A stretch of DNA of 47,481 nucleotides from a virus: IMG/VR virus record IMGVR_UViG_3300020421_000033, positions 1 through 47,481 of that record, one strand, 5' to 3'. Numbering within the stretch: position 1 is the stretch's first letter; each line of letters starts with the position of its first letter. Made by a program: the position numbers and the translations under genes. The notes under the pieces were generated by a model, which saw nothing but the letters and a program-made list of their open reading frames with translations, was not told the DNA's origin and did not search any database. This document shows, piece by piece, positions 29,064 through 46,038 of this stretch.

Positions 29064-29762
29064 ATGGCTAAAGAATTTAAGTTTGTTGAGTTGAATAAAG
29101 ACTTACTGCCTAAAACAAAAGGCAAAAGACAAGACGGTATCCGTTTTTACGAAGTAGACGGACATAACTATCCTTCTGTAACCTCAATTCTAGGTATCAG
29201 AAAAACAGAAGGTCTAAAGAAATGGCGAGAGAGTATTGGCGAGAATGTCGCTAACTTTGAAATGCGAAGAGCAGCCTCTCGTGGTAAAGCAACTCACAAT
29301 CTAGTAGAGAATTATCTTAAAGGTGAAGCACCGAGTGAAAGAGGTGTATTACCTCTAGGTCTATTCAGGTTGATGAAACCATACCTTGACAATATTGGTG
29401 ATGTACACCTTGTTGAAGAGATAATGTATTCAAAAGAATTAACACTTGCCGGTCAGGTAGATTGTGTCGCACAATATAGAGACAAATTGTCCGTTATTGA
29501 TTTCAAAACAGCGAACAAAGAAAAGATTGAAGAGTGGGTAGACAATTACTTCTTACAAACTACTGCTTATGCAATAATGTATGAGGAGATATTCAAAAAA
29601 CCGATAGAACAAATTGTCGTACTTATCGCAGGTGAAGATGGTTCTATGCAAGAATGGGTTAAGAATCCACAAGATTACAAACCTGAACTAAAAAAATCTA
29701 TTGAAAACTTTTATAAATATTACGAGAATAAAAAGTTAGAAACAGACAAACAGACAGCATAG
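29064..29762 (+). CDS. PD-(D/E)XK exonuclease (MGME1/RecB-like)
   Basis: 232 residues. YPSVTSILG and RGKATHNLVENYL (His78) are typical of the MGME1-like group. The catalytic core is GQVDCVAQ (Asp133) and VIDFKTA (Asp146, Lys148), with a QTTAYA helix following. It would degrade single-stranded or host DNA, or process ends for recombination and packaging. The gene has its own consensus promoter. Confidence 0.85.
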   Translation: MAKEFKFVELNKDLLPKTKGKRQDGIRFYEVDGHNYPSVTSILGIRKTEGLKKWRESIGENVANFEMRRAASRGKATHNLVENYLKGEAPSERGVLPLGLFRLMKPYLDNIGDVHLVEEIMYSKELTLAGQVDCVAQYRDKLSVIDFKTANKEKIEEWVDNYFLQTTAYAIMYEEIFKKPIEQIVVLIAGEDGSMQEWVKNPQDYKPELKKSIENFYKYYENKKLETDKQTA

Positions 29763-29810: not shown

Positions 29811-30146
29811 ATGAAAAAACTACTAATCTTTGTTATGTTATTGATGACAAGTTTAGTATATGCAGACCATAGAGAAGATATATTTTATTCATCACAGGTA
29901 CCAATGTTGTGTACAAGTGCTCCTCAAATGAACGAGTTTTTGGACCACAACAATATGAAACCATTAAGTATTGGTTTCGGTCGTAATCAAGGAACGCCTG
30001 ATGGTGATATAGTATATGCCATAACTCACTGGTACAATGCAGAAGATGATATGTTTATGGCAGTAATAGAAACACCAGCACAAGGTGAGAAATGTATTGT
30101 GTATGGAATATATAATTACAAGGAAGTAAATGAAAAAAATAATTAG
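29811..30146 (+). CDS. Small exported protein with predicted translational control
   Basis: 111 residues with a signal peptide (cleavage near LVYA, residue 18). The mature protein has two Cys and a GFGRNQGTPDGDIVYAITHW segment, followed by MFMAVIETPAQGEKC. It looks beta-rich and periplasmic. Its ribosome site lies in the 3' arm of a hairpin. It is followed, with overlap, by a lipoprotein gene. Function unknown. Confidence 0.7.
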   Translation: MKKLLIFVMLLMTSLVYADHREDIFYSSQVPMLCTSAPQMNEFLDHNNMKPLSIGFGRNQGTPDGDIVYAITHWYNAEDDMFMAVIETPAQGEKCIVYGIYNYKEVNEKNN

Positions 30147-30324
30147 TATTATATTTTTAGCAGGACTATTAAGTGCGTGTGCTATCAATGAACCTAGAGT
30201 TTCTTTTGGTAAGAAATGTGTAGAGAAAGACAACAATGTTGTTTACTCATATGTTTGGTTATACGATAAAGAAGCAGGTTTAAATGCAAACGAGAAGACT
30301 TGCGAAAAAATTAAAAAAGATTAA
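30130..30324 (+). CDS. Small lipoprotein of marine phages
   Basis: 64 residues; the lipobox LSAC places the lipidated Cys at residue 17. The rest reads EPRVSFGKKCVEKDNN, YSYVWLYDKEAGLNANEKTC: two further Cys may form a disulfide. The same pattern occurs in unnamed pelagiphage lipoproteins. It overlaps the previous gene by 17 bases, and its stop lies at the 5' edge of the tmRNA acceptor piece. Confidence 0.7.
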   Translation: MKKIISIIFLAGLLSACAINEPRVSFGKKCVEKDNNVVYSYVWLYDKEAGLNANEKTCEKIKKD

Positions 30325-30384
30325 TCGTTGATGGTGGTGTAATAACCGGACTGGACTCGGGTGCAACTCCCGACACCTCCACCA
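30321..30384 (+). ncRNA. ssrA: tmRNA acceptor piece (permuted, two-piece)
   Basis: This is the 3' half of a tmRNA, placed first as in circularly permuted alphaproteobacterial genes. The T stem is TCGGG/CCCGA around loop TGCAACT (30357-30373). The acceptor strand CACCTCC (30374-30380) is followed by A and an encoded CCA (30382-30384). TTAATCGTT (30321-30329) can pair with GACGACTAA (30552-30560) of the coding piece, with eight of nine pairs, to form helix H2. The exact 5' end is inferred from this pairing. Confidence 0.88.
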
Positions 30385-30412
30385 TAAACACATTAGTATA
30401 AGGAGATATGCT

Positions 30413-30520
30413 ATGTTAAAATATTTTTTATATTTGTGGAAGAAGAATATGTGCCACATTAATAGAGACTTATCAAAACATAGACTTCATACAACAAAGT
30501 ATGAAGACCTTTGTATGTAA
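30413..30520 (+). CDS. 35-residue ORF in the tmRNA intervening segment
   Basis: ATG 30413 is preceded by AAGGAG at a good distance. The peptide (MLKYFLYLWKKNMCHINRD then LSKHRLHTTKYEDLCM) is basic and aromatic at its N terminus, with two Cys. It lies wholly between the acceptor and coding pieces of the tmRNA, a spacer that would be cut out during maturation. Whether it is translated is unknown, but the ribosome site is strong. Confidence 0.45.
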   Translation: MLKYFLYLWKKNMCHINRDLSKHRLHTTKYEDLCM

Positions 30521-30530
30521 TGTTTTTATG

Positions 30531-30690
30531 GGGGGTGTGTTAGGATTGACAGACGACTAAAGACCTTCGGAGATTGATAGTTGGCGAACTTAAACGCAAT
30601 TTTAAATGGCAACAATAATTTTGCCCTTGCTGCCTAGTTAATAGGTAACGGAGTTAGTGAAGTACTTGGCAACAGAAACTTCACATTTTC
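30531..30690 (+). ncRNA. ssrA: tmRNA coding piece with proteolysis tag
   Basis: GGGGGTG at 30531-30537 pairs with CACCTCC of the acceptor piece, making a G3-U70 wobble, the alanyl-tRNA synthetase identity pair. GGATTGACAGA follows, like the conserved tmRNA 5' segment. The tag frame is 30608-30637: GGC AAC AAT AAT TTT GCC CTT GCT GCC TAG, encoding GNNNFALAA, so ALAA ends the tag as expected for ClpXP delivery. A hairpin GTGAAGT/ACTTCAC (30657-30684) and TTTT close the piece. The 3' end is approximate. Confidence 0.88.
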
Positions 30691-31015: not shown

Positions 31016-31228
31016 ATGAATAGTAAACAATTTAGTTTAGAAATAGAAAACTACAAGAAAGAACATAAAGGCATATCTTATATGGATGCCATTGTTCATT
31101 ATTGTGAAGAGAGAAGTATTGATACGGCAACGGTCGGTCCTTTAATTAACAAGGCTTTAAAAGAAAAGGTTGCTTTAGAGTGTCAGAAATTAAATCTGTT
31201 ACCTAAAACAAGCGAGTTGCCTATATAA
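31016..31228 (+). CDS. 33: Late transcription coactivator, T4 gp33-like
   Basis: 70 residues, shorter than T4 gp33 (112) but similar in size to cyanophage versions. The pattern YMDAIVHYCEERSIDTATVG, then PLINKALKEKV and a C-terminal LNLLPKTSELP, fits this family. It would link the sliding clamp to RNA polymerase carrying the gp55-like sigma at NATAAATA promoters. The order gp33-gp59-gp32 is the same as in T4, which supports the call. No ribosome site is visible, and the start coincides with the predicted transcript start. Confidence 0.8.
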   Translation: MNSKQFSLEIENYKKEHKGISYMDAIVHYCEERSIDTATVGPLINKALKEKVALECQKLNLLPKTSELPI

Positions 31229-31833
31229 TGTATGGAGGATTTGATGTATTTAAAATCTGGTTGGGAATAAAATTACACTTCACAACAGATACTTACGATT
31301 ATATTACCTATGGTGGTAAAGTTAATTGTAAGATAGAGACTTTTACAAAACGAAATGATAGGTACTTCTTTCATAAACTTTCTAAAAAATATAACGCAGA
31401 AGAAGCAGTTGATTTCTTTGTGGCAAACTTTTTGCATAAAGACAAAGCCTGGATTGGAAATCTTGCTAAGTCTGATGGCGCTGATATATACTTGGATTAC
31501 AAGAAGCGTAAAGATAGTTTTACTTATCAGTTTAGGAATGAGTGTAATAGTATTAGGGTTAATATGGATAATAAGCGCCTGTCTTTTGATGACCTTTTTA
31601 TGGTTAATGGAGGTCAACATCCAATCTTTTTCAAACTTCTACTATCTAAACAAATATGTTATGAAACTCTTGTGGTCTTTGAAGAGTTATTGGGATTCAT
31701 TAGAAGATGGGATAAAGAGATTGAGGAAAAAGTAGTATGGCCAGTATATGCAAAACGAATAAAGAAGTTTACGCCATTTTTACGATACAATAGAACAGAA
31801 ACTAAATTGATTATGAAAGAGATTTTTAATTGA
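31228..31833 (+). CDS. 59: Helicase loader, T4 gp59-like
   Basis: 201 residues (T4 gp59 is 217), with the start on the last base of the gp33 stop (TAATG). The N terminus GGFDVFKIWLGIKLHFTTDTYDYITYGGK is the family signature. The rest is basic and helical, with KFTPFLRYNRTETKLIMKEI at the end. It loads the replicative helicase on gp32-coated forks. Its neighbours gp33 and gp32 are as in T4. Confidence 0.88.
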   Translation: MYGGFDVFKIWLGIKLHFTTDTYDYITYGGKVNCKIETFTKRNDRYFFHKLSKKYNAEEAVDFFVANFLHKDKAWIGNLAKSDGADIYLDYKKRKDSFTYQFRNECNSIRVNMDNKRLSFDDLFMVNGGQHPIFFKLLLSKQICYETLVVFEELLGFIRRWDKEIEEKVVWPVYAKRIKKFTPFLRYNRTETKLIMKEIFN

Positions 31834-45495: not shown

Positions 45496-45795
45496 ATGAT
45501 TAATGGATTGTGGTTAGTTGATAGAATTGAATATTGGATAGGGAGAGGGCGACTCTTGTTCTCTATGTGTTTGCGATTGTTAACTTGGGCCGGACTAACG
45601 GTAATGGTTGCGTATGGTTTAGCGTTTCTTTATGTTGCGATTATAGGTACGATTACTGAAAGAAGCGAATTTAATGAGATAGTTGGTTCTTCTATGTTAG
45701 ATGAATTTTATTACTTTATTCTACCAGCGTTATTAATAACTAGTCGTAAATATATAAATAGTTTTATTCGTTCAACCATTTTTGGTCGGAAGTAA
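45496..45795 (+). CDS. Two-span membrane protein
   Basis: 99 residues. Span one is about 27-52 (LLTWAGLTVMVAYGLAFLYV and AIIG), span two about 70-83 (FYYFILPALLIT). The N terminus has an amphipathic WLVDRIEYWIGRGRL stretch. It starts one base after the previous stop. No function is recognised; the size would suit a holin or antiholin, but no motif supports that. Confidence 0.6.
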   Translation: MINGLWLVDRIEYWIGRGRLLFSMCLRLLTWAGLTVMVAYGLAFLYVAIIGTITERSEFNEIVGSSMLDEFYYFILPALLITSRKYINSFIRSTIFGRK

Positions 45796-45843
45796 GGCAC
45801 TCGCCTGAAGGAACGCACCTAACTTGAAACATAGGAGGGTGTT

Positions 45844-46038
45844 ATGAATAGACATACTTATTTACTCTCCACTTATAGAAAGAAGAAACAAATAGAGCGT
45901 AAAGAAAAGGCTCTTGCGTCTTCTCGTACAGAAGTGGATATAAATGGTAATGGTACTTCTGGTTATACCTTAAAAGAAGGTAAAAACAAAAACAAAGTAC
46001 TTGGCCATAGAGTAGTCAAATCAACCGATAATTGGTAA
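45844..46038 (+). CDS. Small basic protein
   Basis: 64 residues with a strong AGGAGGG ahead of ATG 45844. It is Lys/Arg-rich (YRKKKQIERKEKALASSRTE) with a Gly/Asn turn (DINGNGTSGYTLKEGKNKN). It may bind nucleic acid. A hairpin follows. Function unknown. Confidence 0.6.
   Translation: MNRHTYLLSTYRKKKQIERKEKALASSRTEVDINGNGTSGYTLKEGKNKNKVLGHRVVKSTDNW

Follow-up and report, generated by a model that had tools for sequence, protein, structure and literature searches.

A conserved microprotein gene nested in the spacer of a circularly permuted phage tmRNA

Introduction

Few bacterial RNAs have been studied as thoroughly as tmRNA. The permuted form is regarded as an RNA gene whose spacer is simply thrown away: the precursor is cut at either end of the spacer, after which the two pieces assemble.

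Phages are known to carry such genes. The report on phage Melnitz (PMC9004378) counts 53 two-piece tmRNAs in 18,146 phage genomes, and 50 of the 53 stem from marine or aquatic samples; the two-piece ssrA of Melnitz itself sits immediately upstream of the gene for the phage's transcription coactivator, with a glutamine riboswitch reported beside it. Pelagibacter phage Mosig (MT647606) has an annotated SsrA, with the tag GEDNFALAA, at the locus corresponding to that of the window, between an exonuclease and gp33/thyX. Since pelagimyophage ssrA genes have thus been published (Melnitz) or deposited (Mosig), a permuted phage tmRNA is in itself known. The spacer, or intervening sequence (IVS), is where the present locus departs from them: that of Mosig is 44 nt long and holds no ORF, and a coding IVS is not described in the consulted passages on Melnitz (PMC9004378). 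A precedent for a protein gene in a removable part of a tmRNA exists in group I introns, 36 of 883 intron forms having a gene for a homing endonuclease (PMC11915505).

Here we analyse a 47,481-nt stretch of DNA from a marine phage (IMG/VR record IMGVR_UViG_3300020421_000033, positions 1 to 47,481; the window). An earlier note on this DNA had recognized its tmRNA correctly, but had overlooked a coding ORF in the spacer, at 30413-30520. The nested gene for a tiny, probably membrane-associated protein, an arrangement seen again, with other tiny proteins, in the tmRNA spacers of many aquatic phages, is the new part. No report of an ORF within a tmRNA IVS was found in the literature, the search covering open-licence PMC papers only, so that this absence is no proof.

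Results and discussion

The tmRNA gene

Covariance-model matches identify the segment 30320-30687 as a tmRNA gene of alpha type in circularly permuted form (Table 1). In a cmscan search of Rfam, RF04321 (tmRNA_permuted, a model originating from a 2025 tmRNA database paper, PMC11915505) matched 30323-30637 with 92.5 bits (E 1.1e-16, cut-off 47), and RF01849 (alpha_tmRNA) matched 30277-30687 with 73.8 bits (E 2.6e-18, cut-off 50). Both scores exceed the curated gathering cut-offs, including that of RF01849, one of the two models against which the earlier note had proposed to check its reading of a phage-encoded, permuted, two-piece tmRNA. The proposed order of the halves was likewise confirmed, the tRNA-like half with its CCA being encoded ahead of the acceptor 5' strand of the mRNA-like half, and so was the tag frame, whose product GNNNFALAA has a hydrophobic, protease-type C-terminus. 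ARAGORN made no tmRNA call on the window; its silence is uninformative, because it also misses most relatives tested, with short as well as long spacers.

Table 1. Features of the tmRNA locus and its surroundings in the window.
Feature	Position	Strand	Basis
Exonuclease (phrog_298), conserved upstream neighbour of the tmRNA locus	29064-29762	+	
ORF upstream of the tmRNA, 64 aa, weak lipoprotein-signal match; stop TAA at 30322-30324, within P2 strand	30130-30324	+	
tRNA-like piece (acceptor/T-arm)	30320-30384	+	RF04321/RF01849; covariation, 32 relatives
P2 3' strands in tRNA-like piece	AUUAAUC 30320-30326 and others	+	covariation, 32 relatives
T-stem in tRNA-like piece, TCGGG/CCCGA		+	
Acceptor 3' strand, CACCTCC	30374-30380	+	
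Discriminator A	30381	+	
Encoded CCA	30382-30384	+	
IVS between the tmRNA pieces, 146 nt, presumably removed in mature tmRNA	30385-30530	+	
IVS hairpin, left arm UAAACACAUUA	30385-30395	+	MFE fold; arms conserved in relatives
Strong Shine-Dalgarno AAGGAG, 7 nt ahead of ATG, just within IVS loop	30400-30405	+	sequence
Nested ORF, 35 aa, MLKYFLYLWKKNMCHINRDLSKHRLHTTKYEDLCM, stop TAA at 30518-30520	30413-30520	+	conserved family, in-frame purifying selection
IVS hairpin, right arm UAAUGUUUUUA; first three bases are the nested ORF stop	30518-30528	+	MFE fold; arms conserved
mRNA-like piece, through terminal hairpin GTGAAGT...ACTTCAC	30531-30687	+	RF04321/RF01849, covariation
Acceptor 5' strand, GGGGGTG	30531-30537	+	
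Tag frame GGC...GCC (30608-30634) for GNNNFALAA, stop TAG (30635-30637)	30608-30637	+	equivalent tags in relatives
Late-transcription coactivator (gp33-like, PF16805), conserved downstream neighbour	31016-31228	+	
gp59-like DNA helicase loader (phrog_269), conserved downstream neighbour	31228-31833	+	

Relatives of the locus were collected via the gp59-like neighbour, and the two pieces of 32 distinct tmRNAs were aligned. The acceptor stem with G3-U70 drawn in the earlier note was borne out: G3-U70 is kept in 32/32 relatives across four acceptor sequences (GGGGGUG, GGGGUGG, GGGGUUG and GGGCCAG), each with its matching 3' strand. Acceptor pairs 4-6, the T-stem and P2 covary, and at the terminal hairpin of the mRNA-like piece the relatives have 14 distinct stems, all 14 with 7/7 bases paired. 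The helix H2 of the note, GACGACTAA with TTAATCGTT, did not survive the same comparison. In the consensus fold of the relatives, AUUAAUC (30320-30326) pairs with GAUUGAU (30572-30578), 7/7 in the window and covarying, so that the partner of TTAATCG is GATTGAT and not GACGACTAA, which lies in and beside upper P2 and the P2 internal loop; H2 was accordingly replaced by AUUAAUC/GAUUGAU plus the covarying upper P2.

In gene order, covariance-model match, acceptor G3-U70, T-arm, P2, a tag ending in ALAA and the terminal hairpin, the window tmRNA resembles the two-piece tmRNAs of alphaproteobacteria (RF01849/RF04321). It differs in its spacer, which has 146 nt and an ORF, compared with 11-13 nt at the SAR11 loci and 5-48 nt at the other alphaproteobacterial loci measured with the same script. 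Longer spacers do occur in a few alphaproteobacteria (e.g. L770 in G138, L771 in G183); in these, no ORF led by a Shine-Dalgarno (SD) sequence was evident, and the spacer of L770 contains a repeated unit. As a separate observation, genomes of the SAR11 family (e.g. G064:C7, G039:C7 and G062:C8) hold up to four partial alpha_tmRNA matches within a few kb of an intact copy; these may be remnants of the attachment sites of integrated islands.

Genomic neighbourhood

In most of the ORF families examined (see below), the tmRNA lies near a phrog_298 exonuclease upstream and gp33/gp59 downstream. As these neighbours stay the same, the loci look like one orthologous locus with swapped spacer content. 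The 64-aa ORF ahead of the tmRNA in the window ends inside a P2 strand, and its mRNA and the tmRNA precursor therefore overlap. About 15 kb from the tmRNA, a glutamine riboswitch (RF01739, 56.1 bits, cut-off 35) is found at 45767-45819; it overlaps the end of a 99-aa ORF and is followed by a 64-aa ORF at 45844.

Tag, host and SmpB

The earlier note had supposed an altered tag. Compared with the tags of SAR11 hosts (ANESYALAA, ANESYAIAA, ANDKFALAA and ANEQFALAA), GNNNFALAA indeed differs in its first residues and retains the C-terminal ALAA; some related phages (L052, L055 and L077) carry the SAR11 tag ANESYALAA exactly. Host tmRNAs occur in 50 of 60 genomes from a single SAR11 family. Replacement of the host system, one of the note's two proposals, is conjectural. 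A search for SmpB in the window, three large relatives and the complete phage Mosig found no such gene, so the phage tmRNA would need host SmpB. The note's deduction of an alphaproteobacterial host from the tmRNA type is weak, because Melnitz, with an alpha-type ssrA, infects OM43, a gammaproteobacterium (PMC9004378); the nearest isolate, Mosig, does however infect SAR11.

By analogy with described tmRNAs, the window tmRNA would be processed into two pieces, alanylated and bound by SmpB, and would tag nascent chains. Alternatively, it could be a decoy or inhibitor of the host tmRNA/SmpB system without trans-translation of its own, as there is a precedent in the tmRNA-like RNA of phage DS6A, which has no tag frame and is reported to inhibit host tmRNA in E. 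coli (PMC11915505). We regard this as most unlikely here, given that a tag frame with an ALAA-type end and a stop is kept across relatives and that every structural helix tested covaries.

The spacer and its ORF

In the MFE fold (-50.3 kcal/mol), the IVS forms a hairpin continuous with the acceptor stem, with the ORF in its loop. AGGAG-type sites occur at the equivalent place in homologues of the nested ORF. Translation might be impeded by the hairpin, and the message might be lost through processing.

A spacer ORF might be a chance frame or a decaying passenger without a product, in an otherwise ordinary phage permuted tmRNA. The closest relatives fit such a reading: L006, with 97-99% identity to the window over 12.6 kb and the same tmRNA pieces, has an IVS of 24 nt and lacks exactly the segment with the ORF, 30396-30525, and in the L007 group the ORF is cut to 13 codons. 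Since it is also missing from Mosig, the nested ORF is dispensable. Further relatives have it in a 46-aa form (L019 group) or in forms of 32-43 aa. AT-rich DNA, moreover, easily yields short ORFs, and when no SD was required, 36 of the 162 distinct IVSs of the survey described below contained a long ORF, against 12.5 in shuffles. Several lines of evidence, given in the following, nevertheless make a chance frame very unlikely.

The first concerns the family of the 35-aa microprotein of the window, here called F1. In seven divergent copies taken from tmRNA spacers, 13 residues are invariant; nine distinct F1 coding sequences were found in tmRNA IVSs, and dN/dS is about 0.26 over 32 codons (six 32-codon copies). 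For the last 14 codons of 48 free-standing copies, dN/dS is about 0.04. These and the following dN/dS values are simple pairwise counts on short genes; judged by them, F1 is under purifying selection.

Free-standing homologues of F1

A search with the spacer alignment returned 200 viral loci encoding F1. In the best 79 of them, leaving aside the window's own relative, the gene lies outside a tmRNA, standing by itself in phages unrelated to that of the window. Of these 79, 58 have a phage lysozyme no more than 1.5 kb away, commonly directly downstream, and 64 have a phrog_2524 membrane-type protein within the same distance. The gene surroundings recall podoviruses of the HTVC023P/HTVC027P and HMO-2011 types, from SAR11 and other alphaproteobacteria of the sea. 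Such SAR11-type podovirus microproteins (L158-L236) share with that of the window an amphipathic N-terminus and the C-terminal DLSKHRLHTTKYEDLCM, but are separate genes beside the phage lysozyme, whereas the window copy is nested in the tmRNA; the lysis-cassette location was thus seen for the free-standing homologues and not for the window copy. Another free-standing F1-type microprotein (...GYLGRDLSKHRVHTTKYEDLCK, L213 2342-2467) lies outside a tmRNA in a myophage-like locus, which also carries ribonucleotide reductase and RNase H-like genes.

Cultured phages gave no F1 in a tblastn search, nor was it present in the inspected regions of HTVC023P, HTVC027P, HMO-2011 and CRP-901. An origin as a host gene was rejected, as bacterial and archaeal genome contigs contained no confirmed relative. 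F1 had no match in Pfam, PHROGs or NCBIfam, and hence matches no curated lysis family (holin, endolysin, spanin); with PADLOC and PDB also negative, a homing endonuclease, a defence protein and a known lysis family were discarded as identities. AlphaFold predicts one helix, at low confidence (pLDDT 64). The protein consists of an amphipathic N-terminal segment (hydrophobic moments 0.25-0.56) and the conserved tail. The most likely role for F1 is that of a helper at the membrane in the late phase of infection. A role in lysis, to which the neighbourhood of the free-standing homologues and the amphipathic N-terminus point, is a tentative assignment that may well prove wrong.

Other microprotein families in phage tmRNA spacers

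Viral contigs were scanned for permuted tmRNAs with spacers of 76-168 nt, an ORF not being required and one common acceptor being used except where noted. The 162 distinct long spacers taken from the matches listed are a sample chosen by length. In 18 of them, an SD-led ORF takes up 70% or more of the spacer, compared with a mean of 0.71 (maximum 4) in 100 dinucleotide shuffles under the same criterion. An initial count of 26/172 versus 1.35 was set aside because the sample included loci picked for SD plus ATG.

In other phages, the equivalent IVS is home to at least seven unrelated families of microproteins, most of them short and hydrophobic: F2 (...SKWxxRxYxxWSICADxxLxxGIIYLVFF), F3 (...YWVYxLVTYDWS...), F4 (...HVFF), F5 (...TSNIVMW...), F6 (...PMIG...), F7 (MxWDWHW...) and F8 (MDDDLTRF...). 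dN/dS is 0.18-0.42 in F2-F7, so that with F1 seven families show in-frame purifying selection. Ten ORF-bearing loci, with both alpha and beta type represented, pass the Rfam tmRNA cut-offs, and none of the spacer microproteins tested has a match in the family libraries. The phage IVS products are tiny amphipathic or hydrophobic proteins, whereas those of tmRNA group I introns are homing endonucleases; the tmRNA analysed here has no self-splicing intron, the site being the IVS of the permuted form.

F2 was searched for separately, giving 197 loci, 80 of which were kept for checking. At least 75 of the 80 have F2 in a recognizable tmRNA spacer, and in 75/75 the stop codon ends exactly 1 nt before the acceptor. 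Two of the other five (L849 and L850) also have it in a tmRNA spacer, of 380 nt, after other sequence. The 253-260-nt spacers of L801, L811 and L831 contain tandem ORFs, for a distant F1-like protein ending in Y[ED]D[LV]CM and then for F2; the partial locus L848 has the same arrangement. In L516, L527, L567 and L582, the F7 ORF (MTWDWHWI...) is open into the acceptor of the mRNA-like piece, and processing would therefore cut the message before its stop. The spacers of L242, L272 and L278 have no ORF; in them a long stem closes a T-arm-like element (e.g. GGTTCGAATCC), and ARAGORN called only the tmRNA there.

Selection within frames, the excess of SD-led ORFs, the independent existence of F1 and the fixed stop of F2 all tell against a chance frame. 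At the level of sequence comparison, the analysis demonstrates the anatomy and covariation of the tmRNA, the coding nature of the spacer as judged by selection, the homologues of F1 in lysis cassettes, the clean gain or loss of the ORF between nearly identical phages and the repeated occurrence of unrelated ORFs at this site.

The ORF could alternatively be a regulatory leader: its translation would open or hold the IVS hairpin and control precursor cutting, so that tmRNA maturation would depend on translation and the peptide itself would matter little. The SD in the loop and, for F1, the stop in the hairpin stem place a ribosome at the processing sites, as does the F2 stop 1 nt before the RNase P site, and the location is common to unrelated peptides. 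We nonetheless consider a leader improbable, because each family keeps its amino acids while synonymous positions change, F1 is conserved also where no tmRNA is present, and the ORF is absent from many related tmRNAs.

Proposed function of the locus

The reading that we favour, and hold to be quite probable, is a working permuted tmRNA in a T4-like virus of pelagimyophage type, whose IVS doubles as a coding site for a microprotein. A single transcript would be cut at both IVS ends, by tRNA-processing enzymes as in other permuted tmRNAs. The two pieces would pair and receive alanine through G3-U70, and together with host SmpB would rescue stalled ribosomes, adding the tag GNNNFALAA. The hairpin loop, with the SD and the 35-aa gene, would be read from the unprocessed precursor or from the excised fragment; since the IVS is thrown away, it may be usable, or tolerated, as a coding site. 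For the locus as a whole, we infer processing, trans-translation activity, translation of the ORF and a membrane or lysis role from its sequence and that of its relatives.

A more far-reaching proposal, which we think rather unlikely, is that phage permuted tmRNAs are dual genes as a class, the IVS being an exchangeable cassette for membrane microproteins whose translation, from the precursor, is coupled to maturation. Cutting would make an abutting or overrunning message a substrate of trans-translation, and the tmRNA would thus control the level of its nested protein. In terms of this proposal, the stop abuts the processing site in F2 and lies beyond it in some F7.

Conclusions

Conserved microproteins of several unrelated families in the spacer would make the permuted tmRNA a nested RNA/protein gene. 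If so, the spacer would serve aquatic phages as a hot spot for membrane proteins of tiny size. Genes of this kind are overlooked by annotation, as the RNA caller failed on the window and the microproteins tested are in no family library. The finding also bears on the reason for which phages carry a tmRNA: a single transcript may serve both ribosome rescue and membrane events late in infection.
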